Source: Spirosomataceae bacterium TFI 002 (GTDB taxonomy: Bacteria > Bacteroidota > Bacteroidia > Cytophagales > Spirosomataceae). Taken from it: DNA of 64,000 nucleotides. Position numbers and translations under genes: made by a program. Positions 45,327-58,317 of this stretch are shown here, piece by piece; position 1 is the stretch's first letter, and each line of letters opens with the position of its first letter. The stretch is taken from positions 2,356,001-2,420,000 of the forward strand of contig LT907983.1 of assembly GCA_900230115.1 (NCBI GenBank), written 5' to 3'. The notes below the pieces were generated by a model. The model searched no databases. It worked only from the letters and a program-made list of their open reading frames with translations, and was not told the DNA's origin.

Positions 45327-46817
45327 TTACCCTTCTCTAACCGGCAGTTGATTAAAACAACTGTAGCACGCCCATACAGCCTCTTTGAGCCCTTTAATTT
45401 GCGTTAAATCTTCATTCCATAGCCTAGTGTCACTCAAGACATTGTAAAGGGATTCCTGATTAGTAGTATTCCCTTTCCAATGCTCAGAGTGAATTACAGT
45501 TGCGGGATCGTTGAGTTTAAATCTTTTGCCATTGAACATTCCAAAATAGCCTTTATCATCCTTAGCCAATGGCTGACTAAAGCGAATCATAGCTGCCAAC
45601 CCACAACTCATTAGTTCTGGAGCTTTTCCATTTTTTTGAACATATGAGTTTAATAAAGGAAGGCTTCTTTGAACCATCTTCAGTGTGTAATTAAAACATA
45701 TAGCATGCCATTGGTGCTCTATAAATGGATTTGAAAAACGGTCCAAAACCGCCTTGGCAAATTTCTTTTTTTCTCTTAATGAAATTCCCTTTACCATGGA
45801 AGGAATAATTTCATCGAAAAGAAGCTTCTCTACTTTTGCTTTAAAACCTTCATCAGCCATTGCCTCCTTCACAAGGTTAAAGCCACTTAAAAAGGCATAT
45901 CCAGAAATGAAAGTATGGGTACCATTGAGAATTCGAAGTTTAATTTCTTTATAATTTTCGATGCTAGGTACTACAATAGCATCGGGACTTTGATTACAAA
46001 AACTAAGCTTTCTAGCGACCTCTTCATCACCTTCTATCGCCCATAAAGCATAGGGCTCAACTACGATAGGGTTTTCATCATAGTAGGGCATTTCCTCGTT
46101 AAATATCCTTAGGTCTTCCTCACTCAATGAACCAGGTACGATTCGATCTACCAGCGTATTGCAGAAGTGATTGGCGTTTTCTAACCAGCTTAAAAATGAC
46201 GCAGAAAACTGATTATACTCAGCTAGGCGAGAAACAATGTTTTTAAGCTTGGTTCCGTTGTCTGAAATCAACTCAGTAGGCAAAATTACAAGCCCTTTTG
46301 AATCATCTCCATTATAAAAATCGAACCTTGCTTTTAGACAGGCCAATAATTTTCCTGGGAAAGATTGTGGTGTATTTTGTTCGCCTACAAACTCTTCTAA
46401 ATATGAAATACCAATCTCAGTGGTATTAGAAAATACCACCTCTAAGTCTTTGCTTTGGGCAACTTTAATTATCTCTGACCACTCTTCGCTTGCAGTTAGT
46501 AACCTGCAAGTAGAACTACATAAAACTTTCTTATCGATGATTTTTCCCTTTTGGACACCACGTATCCCTACGGTATAAAGGCAATCTTGATTCACATATT
46601 TCTCAATGGAGCCGTTATTAGTTGATTTCACCATGGCAATTCTGCCATTGAAGTCACCTTTTTCATTCGCTTCATGAATTATCAAACCTGGCAAGCCACG
46701 AAGCAACACTCCTGTCCCAAACTGAAGCACTTTTTCGGGCAAAAGTAAGGTCGATGGATTTTCGCTTTGTAAATAACTATTTGACAATAATTCTACTTCT
46801 ACTATTTCTTCTACCAT
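45327..46817 (-). CDS. uxaB: Tagaturonate reductase (altronate dehydrogenase)
   Basis: UxaB reduces tagaturonate to altronate with NADH in galacturonate breakdown. The dehydrogenase N-terminal part shows KVLQFGTGVLLRGLPG, and the FNGRIAMVKSTNNG region follows. The substrate domain shows LRILNGTHTFISGYAFLSG, the typical mannitol-dehydrogenase-family NGTHT box. Length 496 agrees. It is the last gene of the operon with pectinesterase and the GH88/105 hydrolase, overlapping pectinesterase by seven bases. uxaA and uxaC are not in the window. Confidence 0.9.
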   Translation of the reverse strand: MVEEIVEVELLSNSYLQSENPSTLLLPEKVLQFGTGVLLRGLPGLIIHEANEKGDFNGRIAMVKSTNNGSIEKYVNQDCLYTVGIRGVQKGKIIDKKVLCSSTCRLLTASEEWSEIIKVAQSKDLEVVFSNTTEIGISYLEEFVGEQNTPQSFPGKLLACLKARFDFYNGDDSKGLVILPTELISDNGTKLKNIVSRLAEYNQFSASFLSWLENANHFCNTLVDRIVPGSLSEEDLRIFNEEMPYYDENPIVVEPYALWAIEGDEEVARKLSFCNQSPDAIVVPSIENYKEIKLRILNGTHTFISGYAFLSGFNLVKEAMADEGFKAKVEKLLFDEIIPSMVKGISLREKKKFAKAVLDRFSNPFIEHQWHAICFNYTLKMVQRSLPLLNSYVQKNGKAPELMSCGLAAMIRFSQPLAKDDKGYFGMFNGKRFKLNDPATVIHSEHWKGNTTNQESLYNVLSDTRLWNEDLTQIKGLKEAVWACYSCFNQLPVREG

Positions 46818-47863
46818 TTTGTACCAAATGTTTTTTTGAATGTAAAATCTTTCTGTGTAAGTGCCGTGTTGTCAGCATACCAGCTGAAAGAAGCACCATC
46901 CTTTTTGCAATTTTTATAATATATACGATGTCCCCATTGGAGGTCTCTATCTCCTGATTGATAAATGGGTGCATCAGCCATGTCGTCGCTAAAACTACAG
47001 TTGATCAAGTACATTTGTGCCTCTCGATGATAGCGACCAAGTTTAAATCCTGGGTCGCCTTCGAACCTGCAGTTTATCAATACAGACTTATCATTTTCGC
47101 TTGCCGAACCATCGTGCCATATTGCCGCACTTGTATTGTGACATATAAAAAGAGAGTTTTCAATAATTGCATTTCCTCTGGGACAATACATATCTACGTG
47201 CCCCTCAATGATACAATCGCTAAAATAAAACATACCTCCATTTACGTCCCATGGGCTCACTGTATCTCCACCTCCAGAGCGTAGGATACAATCGTAAAAC
47301 TTAATTCGCGTTGCACCATCTATGGACCTAAAGGCAAACTGATGACCATCTTTGCGAACTACCTTTTGCCCCTCCTTTTCATTTTCCTCTCTCGGCAATA
47401 CTGATCTACCGCTTGAGCCATTTTTACCTGATTCATTCAAACATTGAATAGTTACATCCTTTGTCGCTTCAAAACCGTAAGTATTCAAGATTGTTAGGTT
47501 TCTAAAAACTAAGTCGCTTCCTTTTACATTGAATGTCGCAGCCCCAAAATCACTTGGATTCTCACAACGCCAATTGTCCCTTGCTTGACTATAACTTATG
47601 ACCGTTCCTTTTGCACTTTCTCCCTGAAAAATGATGTGGTGCATGCTACTATCTACAAATACCTTTTCGTTGTAAGTCCCATTCTTTATGTAAATGGTTT
47701 GAAACTTCTGACTAAAAACTAGACTATTCAGAGCTTCTTGAATCGTACCAAAATCTCCAGTACCATCCTGTGCAACTACTACTTTTTTAGCATAGGCTGA
47801 TGTACATATTGCTAGGTATCCTAATACTAGAAAAAGGCTATATCTTAATTTTCTAGTAACCAT
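46811..47863 (-). CDS. Exported pectinesterase (CE8)
   Basis: This enzyme removes methyl esters from homogalacturonan. The 350-residue product has a signal peptide ending at AYA and a right-handed beta helix. The family boxes are present in divergent form: GDFGTIQEAL, GTYNEKV, QFAFR (for QAVALR), GGDTVSPW (for QDTLY), EGHVDMYCPRG (for DFIFG) and KLGRYHREA (for LGRPW). Both catalytic Asp residues and the Arg are kept, but the Gln of the QDT box is Gly. It overlaps the hydrolase gene by 19 bases and uxaB by seven, so the three are translationally coupled. Confidence 0.85.
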   Translation of the reverse strand: MVTRKLRYSLFLVLGYLAICTSAYAKKVVVAQDGTGDFGTIQEALNSLVFSQKFQTIYIKNGTYNEKVFVDSSMHHIIFQGESAKGTVISYSQARDNWRCENPSDFGAATFNVKGSDLVFRNLTILNTYGFEATKDVTIQCLNESGKNGSSGRSVLPREENEKEGQKVVRKDGHQFAFRSIDGATRIKFYDCILRSGGGDTVSPWDVNGGMFYFSDCIIEGHVDMYCPRGNAIIENSLFICHNTSAAIWHDGSASENDKSVLINCRFEGDPGFKLGRYHREAQMYLINCSFSDDMADAPIYQSGDRDLQWGHRIYYKNCKKDGASFSWYADNTALTQKDFTFKKTFGTKW

Positions 47864-49836
47864 TTCGATAAGTCTTTTGCAGCTTGAAAGTTTTGGAACT
47901 TCTTTGATATCCTCCTTCCATCTACGTATTCATTGTATAGCCATGGATCTCCAATTACGGTTATATGCCCTTTTTTGTAAGCAGAGCTAACCATTATAGC
48001 TTTGCCATCTTTACTTAAAATAGTCTTTGAATCTTCCGCGGGGTTAATAGTGACGAGTTCTTTAATGTAAACCTCTTTGGTATTTGGGAAAATGGGGTTG
48101 CCTTTTTCAACCATAACACTTCCTTGGTCAAAGTTTTTGCCTTCCACCATATTCATGTTTTCGAAGGTAAATGACATCCCGAATTCACGAATTAACATAT
48201 CTGCTCCCTTTAGTTCGCAATGTCCTTCGTCATTTGTCATTAAAAGGAGGTGCCCACCTTTTTTCACCCACTTCTTTATTTGCTTTATATCTGTAGGCGT
48301 GATGAAATTGGGACTTGCGGTTTCTTCTTCATTATCTGGATCTACAATGATGTAGACATCCACCCCTTTCATATTTTTATAAGATGGCTTGTCTATATTT
48401 TCTAAGCTTGCTCCGTAATTTTTGAAAATATTACCAAACCAGTAAAACCCAGAATGTTGTTGATCGTCCCATGTATAATGAAATTGCTCTTGCACGCCAT
48501 TGTAACCAGTTCTAAACTCTCTATTGAAATAGGTGTCTAGGCCTACTTTTTTATTCTTTCCAACATTGAGCTCGTCCAACAATTCAAATTCTGTTGCTGC
48601 GAAAATGAACGGCCCTAGTCCCTTAAGATCATTGATTTTTATTGGCTCACTTAGGTAATATTCGTAAGTACCGTCACGATAAGGGTCACCTCCCAACCCG
48701 CCTACGCTTACGGCTTTATCTAGGCTTAAGCTTCCATCTTTTTCATAAATCAAAAATTCCTTTAAAATGCCCTTGAAACCTTTAATTCCTGCTTCCTGAT
48801 ATCCTTGATCAAGGTATCCCATTCTTGCACCTTTCAACAAGGTGTAAGTAAACATGCAAGAAGATGAAGATTCTAAATAATTGCCTTCTTTGCCTGCTAA
48901 GGCTGTCATTTGATACCATACACCCGACTTTTCATCTTGATACTTTACAAGTGCAGGAGCCAGTCGCTGGAGGTAAGAAATAAGCTCTGGTCTACGTGGG
49001 TGATTCATTGGAAAATAATCCAAAACCTCCACCAATGCCATTGCATACCAACCTATAGCTCTTCCCCAAAAATGTGGAGAAAGTCCAGTTTTTTTATCTG
49101 CCCAGTCTTGTTCTCTACTTTCATCATATCCATGATAAATTAGACCCGTTTTGCTATCAACCGCATTTTTTTCAATAAGCTCAAACTGTCTGTAGATGTG
49201 CTCAAAATGCTCTGGGTGATTAAACATTTTTGCAAATTCTGCAGAAAATGGCTCAGCCATAAAAAGGCCATCTAGCCACATTTGGTTAGGGTATCGCTTT
49301 TTGTGCCAATATCCGCCTTCACTTGTCAAAGGTTGATCTTCTAACTGGCTCCAAAGGTTTTCTGCTGCTGCCTTAAATTTCTCTCTGTTTGGCTGTGATT
49401 GGTTATACATTGTCAACAATGCACGACCGGTCGCTATGTTATCAAGGTTAAAATCCTCCAAAGGATAGGTTCTTATCTCCCCATCTTTATCGACATACCT
49501 GTTTAGGTCATTTACTATGTAATTAAAATACTTGTCGTCTGCGGTGCTTCTCCATACTTTTTCCAAAGCCTTAAGCATGAGTCCTTGTTCATAATCCCAT
49601 CGTGCAGGTTTCCCTTCTTTCACTGCAATAGAGTCTTGGTGCAGGCTCATAAAAGAATTTGCCATCCATTGTGAGTATGGCAATTGCTCCGTTTCGGCTT
49701 CCTTTTGAACAGATGATTGAGCATTCTCATTGTTGTAAGCGAGACTCTGCCGAACAGAAATACCTTCTAGCTTTTGGGCATTGCCAACAACAAAAGCTGC
49801 CATGAAGAATCCAACTAATATTATTCTGTTTCTCAT
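47845..49836 (-). CDS. GH88/GH105 unsaturated uronyl hydrolase with C-terminal DUF4350-like domain
   Basis: The 663-residue product has a signal peptide (cleavage after AQ). An (alpha/alpha)6-barrel follows, of the GH88/GH105 type that cleaves unsaturated galacturonyl-rhamnose or related disaccharides left by pectin lyases. Seen are NQMWLDGLFMAEPF, HFWGRAIGWYAMALVEVLDYF and SSSCMFTYTLLKGARMGYL. From about residue 420 a second domain resembles the DUF4350 / glutamine-amidotransferase-like fold (VDVYIIVDPDNEE, IKKWVKKGGHLLLMTND). The start at 49836 (MRNRIILVG) gives a proper signal peptide. It heads the pectin operon, with an operator-like element 120 bases upstream. Confidence 0.87.
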   Translation of the reverse strand: MRNRIILVGFFMAAFVVGNAQKLEGISVRQSLAYNNENAQSSVQKEAETEQLPYSQWMANSFMSLHQDSIAVKEGKPARWDYEQGLMLKALEKVWRSTADDKYFNYIVNDLNRYVDKDGEIRTYPLEDFNLDNIATGRALLTMYNQSQPNREKFKAAAENLWSQLEDQPLTSEGGYWHKKRYPNQMWLDGLFMAEPFSAEFAKMFNHPEHFEHIYRQFELIEKNAVDSKTGLIYHGYDESREQDWADKKTGLSPHFWGRAIGWYAMALVEVLDYFPMNHPRRPELISYLQRLAPALVKYQDEKSGVWYQMTALAGKEGNYLESSSSCMFTYTLLKGARMGYLDQGYQEAGIKGFKGILKEFLIYEKDGSLSLDKAVSVGGLGGDPYRDGTYEYYLSEPIKINDLKGLGPFIFAATEFELLDELNVGKNKKVGLDTYFNREFRTGYNGVQEQFHYTWDDQQHSGFYWFGNIFKNYGASLENIDKPSYKNMKGVDVYIIVDPDNEEETASPNFITPTDIKQIKKWVKKGGHLLLMTNDEGHCELKGADMLIREFGMSFTFENMNMVEGKNFDQGSVMVEKGNPIFPNTKEVYIKELVTINPAEDSKTILSKDGKAIMVSSAYKKGHITVIGDPWLYNEYVDGRRISKKFQNFQAAKDLSKWLLEN

Positions 49837-50238
49837 CGTAAAGTTGATTTTTGGCCATAAGTGAATTGTACAGATAGACTCACTGAATAATGGCAGGTAG
49901 ATCAAAGAAAATTAATATTTCTTTTAAAAATAGTACTTGATTAGAATATATTAACGGCATCGTTCCCGACATCGATTGCGTAAATTTTTGCAACCATTAT
50001 CAAGACTTCATTTTCATTCAAATTCCCAATTAAATGGCTTAAGTTGCGATATATCAGATATTTAAAAGAGTCAGGGTCAGTTTGCTCTTTTTACTTCGTT
50101 TATACAGTGAGTAGACCTTATTTACACGAGCTCTGATTTTATAAATCAAAGTAGATAATATTCCATTTTACCTCCCAATTTTAGAAAAAACCCAAAAACA
50201 CTTACCTGATTTCTCTGTGAGCAAGTATCTTCGCCGCA
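49837..50238. other. Intergenic region between the pectin operon and the EamA gene
   Basis: About 400 bases without a gene. It holds the 29-base operator-like element (49956-49984) and a TATCTTCG at 50225-50232 that resembles a weak -7 element for the EamA gene. Nothing else is recognised. Confidence 0.7.
49956..49984 (-). promoter_or_regulatory. LacI-type operator candidate, copy A
   Basis: A 29-base element with the invariant core ATCGTTCCCGACA and the tail CGATTGC. It matches copy B at 57174-57202 in 26 of 29 positions and contains an imperfect inverted repeat ATCGTT/ATCGAT. On the minus strand it is 120 bases upstream of the hydrolase start at 49836. Confidence 0.7.
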
Positions 50239-51138
50239 ATGTGGATGTATCTAGGCCTAACGGCAGCCCTGTTTTTAGGATTTCATAACTTGGCAAAAAA
50301 ACATGCTGTTCAAGGAAATGAAGCTTTTCCTGTTTTACTTGGTACACTCAGTGCTGGTTTTTTGCTGCTACTACCTCTATATATTGTCTCCTTACTTTAT
50401 CCTGAGAAGGCGATAGAAACTGGCCTTTTTATACAAAACATTCCCTTTAAAACGCATGGATTTATAGCCATAAAGTCATTGATTATGGCTGCTTCGTGGC
50501 TTTTGGCATATCAAGCACTGAAGCACCTTCCTATCACAATAGTTACTCCCATACGCTCTGGTGGCCCATTTTTTACTTTTATTGGAGCAATATTAATTTA
50601 TAACGAGCAACCAAACCCATGGCAATGGGTGGGTTTCTTTCTTATTATATTCTCAGTCTTTCTATATTCTCAGATTGGCAAAAAAGAAGGTATTGTTTTT
50701 AAAAAAAACAAATGGATTTATGCCATCATAGGAGCAACTTTTCTAGGTGCTTCGAGTGGGCTTTATGATAAGTTTTTGATTCAAAACCTTGAGCTTGCTC
50801 CACAAACCTTACAGTTCTGGTTTTGCTGGTATACCATTCTTATTCTATTGATAATTCTAGGTGTGAGTTGGTTTCCCTTCCCTGAGAAACGCAAAGCATT
50901 CCGATGGCGTTGGACAATCCCTGTAGTCGGAATTTTACTCCAACTCTCCGACTACTTCTATTTCAAAGCACTTCAAGATCCCGAAGCCTTGATCATGTTG
51001 TTATCAGCTATTAAGCGAAGCCAGATTCTTATTGCTGTGGTTTTGGGAGGCCTTATTTTTAAAGAGAAAAACAAGCGGAAGAAGCTGATTCCTTTGGCTG
51101 GAATTATGATAGGAGTGGGATTGATATTGTTTTTTTGA
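50239..51138 (+). CDS. EamA-family (drug/metabolite) transporter
   Basis: The 299-residue inner-membrane protein has ten hydrophobic helices in two EamA repeats, each ending in a Gly-rich EAMA-like segment (GAILIYNEQPNPWQWVGFFLII and LGGLIFKEKNKRKKLIPLAGIMIG). Substrates of this family vary widely. Its position between two pectin operons might suggest a sugar acid, but the orientation and lack of the operator element argue against a close link. Confidence 0.85.
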   Translation: MWMYLGLTAALFLGFHNLAKKHAVQGNEAFPVLLGTLSAGFLLLLPLYIVSLLYPEKAIETGLFIQNIPFKTHGFIAIKSLIMAASWLLAYQALKHLPITIVTPIRSGGPFFTFIGAILIYNEQPNPWQWVGFFLIIFSVFLYSQIGKKEGIVFKKNKWIYAIIGATFLGASSGLYDKFLIQNLELAPQTLQFWFCWYTILILLIILGVSWFPFPEKRKAFRWRWTIPVVGILLQLSDYFYFKALQDPEALIMLLSAIKRSQILIAVVLGGLIFKEKNKRKKLIPLAGIMIGVGLILFF

Positions 51139-54580: not shown

Positions 54581-55339
54581 TTAAGGAACCTTCTCTTCCA
54601 CCAAAAACTCACCCAACGGACTCCCAATCTCAACTAAGCCTTCCACAGCAAGCTTTGCCATAACTCTTGCACCTTCTTTTGTAAAGTGTGTGTTGTCTTC
54701 TAATCCGTTGGGATAGTTCGGGTAAGTATTTGGCTCCAAATTCATGTAAAGCTTTTTGGACTTCTCCACACCAAGGTTTTCTAAAACTTCAAGGCTTTTG
54801 GCATACATATCGATTAATGGAATGTTCATTTCACTAGCAAGTGAACGTACGGCATCAGGATATTCACCATGCTGATCTACAAAAACTCCATTTTCATCAA
54901 ATTTTCGTCGATTTATTGGTGTCAATAGAATAGGGAAAGCACCTTTTGCTTTGGTTTCTTCTACGTACCTTTTGAGATTTGCTTTATAAGCTGTGTTAGG
55001 TGTAGAATAACGAGTGGGGTCTTTGATTTTCTGATCATTATGACCAAACTGTATGAAAACATAATCACCTTCTTTTAGTTGGCTCTCAACTTTATCCCAT
55101 AAACCCTCGTCACGGAAAGACTTTGTACTGCGACCGTTAACCGCATGGTTTTGAGTCACCACTTCATCTGTAAATAATTCATGAAGGACCTGCCCCCATC
55201 CTGTTTCTGGAGCAACTTTGGCAGTTTTATTCGCCATGGTACTATCACCAATCATAAAGATTCTGACTTCTTTGTTGAGAGACTTAAATGATGTCCCTAA
55301 AAAGAACAGAGCGAGCATAAATGTTATGTTCTTAACCAT
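54581..55339 (-). CDS. Exported rhamnogalacturonan acetylesterase (CE12, SGNH)
   Basis: The 252-residue product has a signal peptide and the SGNH hydrolase boxes: block I FMIGDSTMANKTA with nucleophile Ser in GDST, block II HAVNGRSTKSF, block III FIQFGHNDQK and block V DNTHFTKEGARVM with the catalytic Asp-x-x-His. This matches the YesT/RhgT-type enzymes that remove acetyl groups from rhamnogalacturonan I. The gene follows kduI across a strong terminator, so it may need its own promoter or partial read-through. Confidence 0.88.
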   Translation of the reverse strand: MVKNITFMLALFFLGTSFKSLNKEVRIFMIGDSTMANKTAKVAPETGWGQVLHELFTDEVVTQNHAVNGRSTKSFRDEGLWDKVESQLKEGDYVFIQFGHNDQKIKDPTRYSTPNTAYKANLKRYVEETKAKGAFPILLTPINRRKFDENGVFVDQHGEYPDAVRSLASEMNIPLIDMYAKSLEVLENLGVEKSKKLYMNLEPNTYPNYPNGLEDNTHFTKEGARVMAKLAVEGLVEIGSPLGEFLVEEKVP

Positions 55340-55392: not shown

Positions 55393-56223
55393 TTATCTTA
55401 TAAAATTAAGATCTACGTGATCCATGTCAGTAAAGTCTTTGTTTTCTCCTGCCATTGCCCAAATAAATGAGTAGTTGGCTGTTCCACTACCAGCGTGAAT
55501 AGACCAAGGTGGCGAAATGATTGCCTCTTGGTTTTGAACCCACATGTGGCGAGTTTGATCTGGCTTACCCATGAAATGCATAACTCCGTGGTTTTCTGGA
55601 ATATCGAAATAACAATAAACCTCGCTACGTCTATCATGGGTATGAGGTGGCATTGTGTTCCACACACTTCCAGATTGTAACACGGTAAGTCCCATCACCA
55701 ACTGGCAACTCATGATACCATCGTTGTGGATGTACTTATAAATCGTCCTGTGATTTGAGGTTTCTGCACTACCAAGTGTAACTGGTGAGGCTTCTTCTTT
55801 GGTAAGTTTCTTATTAGGGAATGTTTTATGTGCAGGTGCCGAAAGCAGAAAAAACTTCGCAGGGTTGTCTTTACTTTGAGACTGAAAAATAACATCCTTA
55901 GTTCCCTTACCTAAATAAAGACAACCAAGCTTATCCAACTCGTAGTTTTCACCATCAGCAGTAATACTTCCTGTTCCTCCAAGGTTAATGATTCCTAACT
56001 CTCTTCTTTCCAAAAAATAGTCAGACTTAACGTCATCGGGGTTTGGCAACGAAATACTCTTGGCTACAGGCTTAATACTGCCTACAATCATGCGATCGTA
56101 GTGGCTATAAGTAAGCGACACCTCGTTTTCGTTAAATAATGATTGAATCAAAAAATCGGCTCTTATTTCCGAAGTGTTCATTCTTTCAAACTCTCTTGGA
56201 CTGGTTTCGTAACGCGAATTCAT
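55393..56223 (-). CDS. kduI: 5-dehydro-4-deoxy-D-glucuronate isomerase
   Basis: KduI isomerises the unsaturated uronate 4-deoxy-L-threo-5-hexosulose uronate to 3-deoxy-D-glycero-2,5-hexodiulosonate in pectin and alginate breakdown. The cupin zinc ligands appear in PPHTHDRRSEVYCYF, with a further histidine in the late barrel. The N-terminal TSPREFERMNTSEIR is typical. Length 276 is normal. It lies 85 bases after kduD in the same direction and supplies its substrate. Confidence 0.94.
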   Translation of the reverse strand: MNSRYETSPREFERMNTSEIRADFLIQSLFNENEVSLTYSHYDRMIVGSIKPVAKSISLPNPDDVKSDYFLERRELGIINLGGTGSITADGENYELDKLGCLYLGKGTKDVIFQSQSKDNPAKFFLLSAPAHKTFPNKKLTKEEASPVTLGSAETSNHRTIYKYIHNDGIMSCQLVMGLTVLQSGSVWNTMPPHTHDRRSEVYCYFDIPENHGVMHFMGKPDQTRHMWVQNQEAIISPPWSIHAGSGTANYSFIWAMAGENKDFTDMDHVDLNFIR

Positions 56224-56308: not shown

Positions 56309-57070
56309 TTATCTGCCCATCCAACCTCCATCAACTGTGAGGATTTCACCGTGTACATAATTTGCTAAATCAGATGCTAAAAAGACTGTTGGCCCTTTAA
56401 AGTCTTCTGTTTCACCCCATCTTCCGGCAGGAATTCTACTAAGTATTGATGTGCTTCTGTCTTGGTCTTTTCTCAATGCTTCTGTGTTGTCAGTGGCAAT
56501 GTACCCTGGAGCAATTCCATTTACATTTACTCCTTTGCTAGCCCACTCATTTGCAAATGCCTTGATTAAACTTCCGATAGCACCTTTACTCGCTGCATAA
56601 CCTGGAACCGTAATTCCACCTTGGAAAGTTAACAATGAGGCAGTAAAAATAACTTTACCTGATCCTCTCTCAACCATTTCTTTTCCAAACTCCCTAGTGA
56701 GGATAAATTGTGCATTTAAGTTTACATCAATTACCGTATCCCAATATTCATCTGGATGCTCAGCAGCAGGCTTTCTTAAAATTGTACCTGCATTATTAAC
56801 CAAAATATCAACCACAGGATGCTCAGCCTTGGCTTTTTCTATAAATGTGTAAAGTGATTTTCTGTCAGAAAAATCCGACTGATAACCATAAAACTGACGG
56901 CCAATTGCTTTGACCCTCTTTTCAATAGCACTACCACTAGTTTCCAAACTTGCAGAAACACCAATGATGTCTGCTCCTGCTTCCGCAAGAGCCTCAGCCA
57001 TTGCAAATCCTATTCCTCTTTTACACCCTGTTACCAAGGCAACTTTACCAGTTAAATCAATTGTTAGCAT
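56309..57070 (-). CDS. kduD: 2-dehydro-3-deoxy-D-gluconate 5-dehydrogenase
   Basis: KduD reduces the product of KduI to 2-keto-3-deoxygluconate with NAD(P)H. It is a short-chain dehydrogenase: nucleotide motif TGCKRGIGFAMAEAL, LVNNAGTI, catalytic Ser in FTASLLTF and YxxxK in YAASKG. The KDUD-type ending VDGGWMGR is present. Length 253 is normal. It is the first gene of the right pectin operon and divergent from the LacI gene; the operator copy B lies between them. Confidence 0.93.
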   Translation of the reverse strand: MLTIDLTGKVALVTGCKRGIGFAMAEALAEAGADIIGVSASLETSGSAIEKRVKAIGRQFYGYQSDFSDRKSLYTFIEKAKAEHPVVDILVNNAGTILRKPAAEHPDEYWDTVIDVNLNAQFILTREFGKEMVERGSGKVIFTASLLTFQGGITVPGYAASKGAIGSLIKAFANEWASKGVNVNGIAPGYIATDNTEALRKDQDRSTSILSRIPAGRWGETEDFKGPTVFLASDLANYVHGEILTVDGGWMGR

Positions 57071-57173
57071 GGTTGATTTTTTTTCTACTTTGAATTTATT
57101 TTTTTAATGAAAAAAAAGACTATCACAAGTTTAAGAATTCGAAAAGTCCTAAACTATCAGTTCAATTTGTTTA

Positions 57174-57202
57174 TTTATGCAATCGTTGTCGGGAACGATA
57201 CC
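57174..57202 (+). promoter_or_regulatory. LacI-type operator candidate, copy B
   Basis: The reverse complement of this element equals copy A at 49956-49984 in 26 of 29 positions, with core ATCGTTCCCGACA. In this copy the inverted repeat ATCGTT/AACGAT around CCCGAC is perfect. It lies 98 bases before the LacI gene and 103 bases before kduD, in the shared divergent region. Confidence 0.75.
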
Positions 57203-57250
57203 ACTTTCAAATATATCAAAATAGCGACACAAAGTGGGTGCAAATTATTG

Positions 57251-57300: not shown

Positions 57301-58317
57301 TTGCAATCGGTTACGATCAAAGATATCGCCAAAGCTCTCAACCTATCAACCTCTACTGTTTCCAGAGCAATAAGGGGGAGTTATGAGATAAGTGAGAATA
57401 CAAAAAAGTTAGTGCTCGACTACGTTGAGAAAGTTAACTATCGCCCTAATCCAATTGCGATTGGTTTAAAAGAAAACAAGACCAATAGTATTGGAATTAT
57501 AGTCCCTGTTATCGCTAACAGTTTTTTCTCAAATGCTATTAATGGTGTAGAAGAAGTTGCTCAAGAACGAGGATATAGAGTGATGATTTTTCAAACACAA
57601 GAAAATAGTAAAAAGGAAAAGTCTTGTTTGGAACATGTGATGGATCAGAGACTAGATGGACTCATCATGTCCTTGTCGGGAAACACCATAGATTATAAGT
57701 ATATTCAAGATATACTCGATTCGAACTTCCCAATGGTATTTTTTGATAGAGTACCAGATGGGGTGGAGGCAAACAAAGTTGTAGCCGATAATTTCCAAGG
57801 AGCATTTAATGCCACAGAGCACCTCATAAAAGCTGGGAGAAAAAGGATTGGTCACATTACGAGCCCTCCTGTATTATCTATTACCAAAGAAAGACTTGCT
57901 GGTTACAAAGCAGCTCTTGGTGCTAATGGTATTGAATATAACGAAAACCTAGTGCGATACACTGATTTCAATTACGATGTAATGGAGCAAAACCTAAGGG
58001 AATTCATGCTAAATGAAAGGCCCGACGCATTGTTTGCCGCAAGTGATCGCATTGCTCTTAAGTGCTTTGAAGCTGCCAATAGTCTGGAAATAAAGATTCC
58101 TGAAGAAATACTGTTTGTTGGATTTACCAACCTTGACGTAGCTCACCTGCTTAGTCCTGCTCTCACTACCATTACTCAGCCCGCCCAAGAACTTGGAACA
58201 AGAGCAGCAGAGATTTTATTTGATAATATAGAGAACACTAAAAGCAAGTTTCCTTATAAAACGGTGCAATTGCCCGTGAGTTTGAATATTCGGAAGTCTT
58301 CAAGTATTGAGCTGTAA
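57301..58317 (+). CDS. LacI-family transcriptional regulator of the pectin locus
   Basis: The 338-residue regulator has the LacI helix-turn-helix and hinge (VTIKDIAKALNLSTSTVSRA, later YRPNPIAIGL) and a periplasmic-binding-protein-like effector domain (SIGIIVPVIANSFFSNAINGVEE, RPDALFAASDRIALKCFEAA, TTITQPAQELGTRAAEI). It begins with TTG; no ATG is available in frame near it. It is divergent from kduD and the likely regulator of both pectin operons, with a uronate intermediate as probable inducer. The binding site is probably the shared 29-base element. Confidence 0.88.
   Translation: MQSVTIKDIAKALNLSTSTVSRAIRGSYEISENTKKLVLDYVEKVNYRPNPIAIGLKENKTNSIGIIVPVIANSFFSNAINGVEEVAQERGYRVMIFQTQENSKKEKSCLEHVMDQRLDGLIMSLSGNTIDYKYIQDILDSNFPMVFFDRVPDGVEANKVVADNFQGAFNATEHLIKAGRKRIGHITSPPVLSITKERLAGYKAALGANGIEYNENLVRYTDFNYDVMEQNLREFMLNERPDALFAASDRIALKCFEAANSLEIKIPEEILFVGFTNLDVAHLLSPALTTITQPAQELGTRAAEILFDNIENTKSKFPYKTVQLPVSLNIRKSSSIEL

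Follow-up and report, generated by a model that had tools for sequence, protein, structure and literature searches.

A probable directional LacI-type operator at a fixed distance from predicted promoters marks a putative pectin and galacturonate regulon in Spirosomataceae bacterium TFI 002

The pectin locus of Spirosomataceae bacterium TFI 002 contains the same short non-coding element twice, which raises the question of what binds there and with what effect on the neighbouring genes. The window analysed is a stretch of 64,000 bp, bases 2356001–2420000 of a genome that consists of one contig with 5,461,465 bp. Copy A has its core at 49956–49984 (GGCATCGTTCCCGACATCGATTGCGTAAA), and copy B, read as the reverse complement, at 57174–57202 (GGTATCGTTCCCGACAACGATTGCATAAA). 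A recount bears out the original prediction of 26 identities in 29 positions (three differ), and both copies lie outside open reading frames, as had been stated. The perfect inverted repeat ascribed to copy B is also present, as ATCGTT-CCCGAC-AACGAT. That prediction took the pair for operators of a nearby LacI-family protein, joining two operons in one regulon.

Copy A was said to precede an operon for pectin degradation, and it lies 119 bp upstream of the start of a GH88/GH105 unsaturated glycuronyl hydrolase gene (47845–49836, minus strand; Pfam PF07470, E 3.3e-103). On the same strand follow a pectinesterase gene (46811–47863; PF01095, E 5.6e-21) and a gene of the mannitol dehydrogenase family (45327–46817; PF08125/PF01232), whose context suggests a UxaB-type tagaturonate reductase; the three reading frames overlap and form one operon. 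Divergent from the GH105 gene, on the plus strand, is a gene for an EamA-family transporter (50239–51138; PF00892), a possible alternative target of copy A. Copy B lies, as had been claimed, between kduD and the LacI-family gene. The kduD operon is on the minus strand and comprises a short-chain dehydrogenase gene of KduD type by context (56309–57070; PF00106), kduI for 5-keto-4-deoxyuronate isomerase (55393–56223; PF04962, E 9e-35) and, downstream of it, an SGNH/GDSL esterase gene resembling rhamnogalacturonan acetylesterase (54581–55339; PF13472). The regulator gene is on the plus strand (57301–58317, TTG start), and its product belongs to the LacI/GalR family, with an HTH domain (PF00356, E 5.1e-14) and a periplasmic-binding-like effector domain (PF13377, E 1.1e-30), both above cut-off.

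The consensus of 144 sites in related genomes is 34 bp long (TGGNAWCGTTNCCGRNAACGWTTGCRYAAAWAAA) and joins a 24-bp CpG-centred dyad of the form G..AWCGTTNCC|GGNAACGWT..C to an A-rich tract that is strongly conserved and confined to one flank. This even, CpG-centred dyad, with half-sites 4–9 bp from the centre (ATCGTTCCC|GACAACGAT in copy B), has the form of a LacI-family operator. Within the window, the 34-bp motif defines a predicted operator copy A at 49955–49988 on the plus strand (CGGCATCGTTCCCGACATCGATTGCGTAAATTTT), with the A-tract side towards the EamA gene, and a predicted operator copy B at 57170–57203 on the minus strand (TGGTATCGTTCCCGACAACGATTGCATAAATAAA), pointing at kduD. A 34-column matrix, trained on related sites that include these two copies and the third copy described below and applied to individual loci, gives them scores of 42.8 and 53.8; in 20 Markov-1 simulated windows of 64 kb no score exceeds 7.6. 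The motif is also directional. Of 151 scorable cases, 137 have a gene on the A-tract side that reads away from the site, and where no lacI lies behind the site, a correctly oriented gene is found only in front in 44 cases and only behind in two. By these comparisons, the shared 29 bases form the central part of a longer, predicted 34-bp directional operator, a length and a directionality that the original prediction had missed.

A pattern search of the 5.46-Mb genome, allowing up to 3 mismatches rather than using a weight matrix, finds exactly three strong copies, while the reversed-pattern control finds none. The third copy (TGGTATCGTTCCCGAGATCGATTGCGTAAATAAA, matrix score 50.7) is at 4943130, 2.5 Mb distant, and lies 148 bp upstream of a SusC gene followed by SusD. 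All three copies thus stand before pectin/uronate or SusC/SusD genes, which disposes of the dispersed repeat named in the original prediction as a possible refutation. Near-identical non-coding sequences can be repeats, but a repeat, or a likeness due to chance, that plays no regulatory role has next to no probability here, given three copies in the genome against zero in the control, conservation in over 20 genera within the family and in other families, and an orientation and promoter distance that are fixed.

No genes for carbohydrate-active enzymes were found near the SusC/SusD pair behind the third copy. Its tie to pectin comes from the nearest relative as judged by LacI (G058, 68% identity), which has orthologues of the pair (73/72%) with the element in front (locus L186) and, on the same contig, the arrangement LacI-[site]-KduD-KduI; the importer is therefore linked to pectin genes in two genomes. 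With the third copy before SusC/SusD, the predicted regulon consists of three operons: GH105-pectinesterase-uxaB, kduD-kduI-esterase and the distant SusC/SusD importer. No operator was found near the uxaC gene of this genome (C1:323732).

Related genomes give this regulon its physiological content. Among the 137 sites that face a correctly oriented gene, the first gene encodes SusC in 34, a pectin enzyme of GH28/SGNH type in 25, KduD in 20 and UxaB in 13, with smaller classes for KduI, cupin, GH105, GH43 and fructose-1,6-bisphosphatase. Altronate dehydratase (uxaA), glucuronate isomerase (uxaC), a PfkB kinase, an MFS transporter, pectate lyase and pectinesterase are encoded further downstream. 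As in a KdgR-type regulon, sites precede operons for pectin degradation and uronate catabolism in several genomes. The element, found before related operons in many genera, is by this comparative evidence a predicted marker of a pectin/galacturonate regulon. The same comparison supports the placing of both window operons in one regulon and adds the distant SusC/SusD pair.

In five relatives (L116:8698-9738 and similar loci) the operator is followed first by a gene for fructose-1,6-bisphosphatase, with the −7 box described below at the conserved distance in 5/5; a gluconeogenic enzyme would fit growth on a sugar acid whose carbon reaches central metabolism as pyruvate and glyceraldehyde phosphate. 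At five loci (among them L182:8202-9242 and L184) the first gene encodes a regulator of GntR type that carries a periplasmic-binding-like domain, possibly part of a regulatory cascade concerned with arabinose or side chains.

The distribution of the element follows that of the LacI protein. Of the 150 family genomes compared, 76 contain the motif together with a close LacI orthologue, 11 LacI only, four the motif only and 59 neither, so that the motif occurs in 76/87 genomes with the orthologue and in 4/63 without (Fisher p ~3e-25, a value that ignores phylogeny and, the genomes being related, overstates their independence). In a class-wide sample of 295 genomes the motif is present in 9 of 11 with LacI and in 8 of 284 without, and the latter is background, being roughly equalled by the number of genomes that the reversed-pattern control hits by chance. 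A site lies within 330 bp upstream of lacI in 65 of 80 named genomes (another collection, partly overlapping the 150), always pointing away from lacI. Base and residue also change together. Tyr17 of E. coli LacI is a classical specificity residue, and LacI relatives with Lys instead of Thr at this position have half-sites AACGGT, not AACGWT, at 5/5 loci, with G:C replacing A:T at ±8 in all five; this covariation may represent a single evolutionary event in one clade. Taken together, the co-occurrence, the site upstream of lacI and the covariation make the neighbouring LacI protein, with high probability, the binder of the element, and the predicted binder of all three operators; the co-occurrence thus supports the LacI-operator reading of the original prediction.

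Alternatively, another activator might bind the element, lacI being merely a target gene or a neighbour. In length and asymmetry the 34-bp motif exceeds the usual LacI operators, and 4 of the 80 motif-bearing family genomes have no close LacI orthologue; two of these four (G004 and G023) nevertheless carry a 43–44% homologue whose gene is preceded by a related dyad. Since the dyad centre is a LacI-type CpG, the operator base co-varies with a recognition-helix residue, and the class-level motif is at background where the orthologue is absent, an activator other than LacI is very improbable.

Some of the sites of LacI relatives depart from the consensus. The Lys-17 relatives (L202, L204, L206, L140, L145) have related palindromes upstream of their own genes, such as TTTACGCAACCGTTCCCGGGAACGGTTGCGTAAA, two of them perfect, and in these no clear −7 box was seen at +64/65. 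Eight of the 11 LacI-bearing family genomes that lack a strong motif belong to genus g23 (Lacihabitans and relatives), in which several of the loci examined retain a half-site only: most operators upstream of lacI (L055, L058, L061, L062, L065) are without the left half-site and keep AACGATTGCATAAAT, while the recognition helix is nearly unchanged. Gly or Asp at position 25, past the recognition helix, was considered as the cause of this change and rejected, as Asp also occurs with canonical operators elsewhere. An altered genome-wide operator in Lacihabitans was likewise dropped, the search giving half-site-like matches alone, one each in 5/10 genomes. The genome under study also encodes a second LacI paralogue (recognition helix SISTVSRA), which has a double dyad of its own (AACGTTCTCGGAAACGTT; C1:2468941-2468983, L213:12442-12483), related to the motif and located in front of a divergently oriented SusC/SusD pair, and a further similar site lies near L213:6087, upstream of another SusC. 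This paralogue and its SusC/SusD pair are a predicted parallel regulon of similar architecture.

In most sites the operator keeps one position relative to the promoter, a regularity that the original prediction had likewise missed. Promoters of Bacteroidota have a −7 element TAnnTTTG and a −33 element TTTG (PMC7366714). Counting from the C of CGTT, with −7 boxes assigned by consensus, a −7 box (TAnnnTT) lies 64–65 bp beyond the element in 77 of 137 sites, where about 3 are expected. In 93 non-redundant downstream sequences, TA...TT begins at +64 in 42 and at +65 in 15 (57/93), against about 1–2 at each other position, and TTG, corresponding to −33, shows a peak at +41 (28/93). The box recurs at +64/65 in almost all classes of target gene, as in 12/13 sites before UxaB, 5/5 before fructose-1,6-bisphosphatase, 19/34 before SusC, 9/25 before GH28/SGNH and 9/20 before KduD; as these gene families are unrelated, the common distance is not due to simple descent of one promoter. 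For the third copy, TTG is at +41 and TAAAATTG at +65. The kduD operon has a candidate −7 box (TAAACTTG, 57126–57133, minus strand) exactly +64 from the operator core, with a predicted start point at ~57122. Relative to the predicted start point, the dyad centre would be at about −68.5 and the A-tract at about −54 to −48. Three other arrangements were rejected. A promoter placed symmetrically towards lacI occurs in only 3/64 cases; the conserved TTGC at the right end of the motif is excluded as a −33 box, since −7 boxes peak at +64/65 and TTG at +41; and promoters shifted by one helical turn, at sites without a box at +64/65, amount to an unconvincing 2/36.

The direction of copy A is ambiguous, as its A-tract points towards the EamA gene while a −7 box at the right distance lies towards GH105. 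On the GH105 side, TTTCTTTG (49903–49910, minus strand; predicted start point ~49899) has one mismatch to TAnnTTTG and is a candidate −7 box at +64 from the dyad in that direction; on the EamA side there is none at +64/65. With the dyad reversed to the GH105 direction, copy A has a matrix score of 20.4. GH105 appears to be the favoured target, and both divergent genes may be served.

What, then, does the bound protein do? Most LacI-family sugar regulators repress, and activation is rare in the family. The sites described here have the fixed distance and the orientation upstream of the promoter of a class I-like activator site. On the consensus-based −7 positions, most of them neither overlap nor flank the core promoter, as the operator of a classical LacI-type repressor does, though they could still serve repression of another kind. 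A repressor that acts sterically needs no strict, oriented upstream position, and we therefore conclude that the LacI-family protein probably activates its regulon rather than repressing it in the classical way. CcpA, another LacI-family protein, activates from a site upstream of the promoter (PMC4591507).

Repression would mean that LacI blocks the three operons until it is released by an inducer, either 2-keto-3-deoxygluconate (KDG) or galacturonate; the fixed distance would then reflect contact with RNA polymerase or the upstream promoter region. This reading draws on the same evidence for a LacI site as activation does, on the habit of the family and on one upstream CcpA site that represses (PMC4591507). 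It is nonetheless rather unlikely, as the dyad centre lies outside the core promoter, ~57 bp upstream of the −7 box in most sites, the same strict spacing recurs before unrelated genes, and the conserved A-tract between operator and −33 suits recruitment better than blocking.

For activation, the following course of events is proposed. A LacI dimer would recognise the CpG-centred dyad, with its centre ~68 bp before the start of a sigma-ABfr-type promoter (TTG at about −33, TAnnnTT at about −7) and the one-sided A-tract between dyad and promoter. Bound LacI would most likely activate, probably by aiding the binding of RNA polymerase with the alpha C-terminal domain on the A-tract. The regulon would join uptake and both uronate branches, and because the uxa and kdu branches converge, the signal would be a metabolite common to both, most simply KDG.

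The operators of E. coli LacI and PurR are CpG-centred dyads at or near the core promoter, from which they repress. The dyad described here is likewise centred on CpG, and the recognition helix is of the same family (STSTVSRA vs SYQTVSRV), but the element is located at about −68 and has a one-sided A-tract. CcpA with its cre sites in Bacillus subtilis is also a LacI-family dimer with a CpG-centred semi-palindrome (PMC4591507), the binding here being predicted; CcpA, however, is global, uses HPr and mainly represses (PMC4591507), whereas the regulator considered here is local, with most sites at one upstream position. Closest in substrate are the predicted LacI-family uronate regulons of KdgR (BT0487), UxaR and UxuR in Bacteroides thetaiotaomicron (PMC3878776, Table 2). 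Compared by description, these too are local regulators of glucuronate/galacturonate use derived from conserved sites, and in the part of that study compared here they are described without a directional operator or a fixed promoter distance (PMC3878776), both of which are found here. According to the same part, HTCS systems control the pectin SusC/SusD genes of Bacteroides (PMC3878776), whereas here a predicted LacI site stands directly before a SusC/SusD pair. No account of this operator, of LacI activators in Bacteroidetes or of a fixed operator–promoter distance was found in the open-access papers searched. A LacI regulon for pectin and uronates is thus of a known kind, while the directional operator at a fixed, predicted activating position is a new form of it.

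Overall, the element provides a substrate for a SusC/SusD importer that otherwise has none assigned, and one predicted regulator ties together uptake, depolymerisation and both uronate pathways. It seems somewhat likelier than not that in much of Bacteroidota (Cytophagales, Chitinophagales and relatives) a local LacI sugar regulator is a dedicated, ligand-switched activator. Its directional operator-plus-A-tract module would keep one distance, about −68.5, to sigma-ABfr promoters; the resulting 100-bp unit of operator and promoter would be recognisable from sequence alone and would link isolated SusC/SusD pairs with their substrate. If activation is true, the usual assumption that a local LacI is a repressor fails for a whole clade, and deletions of lacI would prevent growth on pectin instead of rendering it constitutive. 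Where experimental data are missing in Bacteroidota, start sites and regulons could be predicted from the fixed operator–promoter unit.
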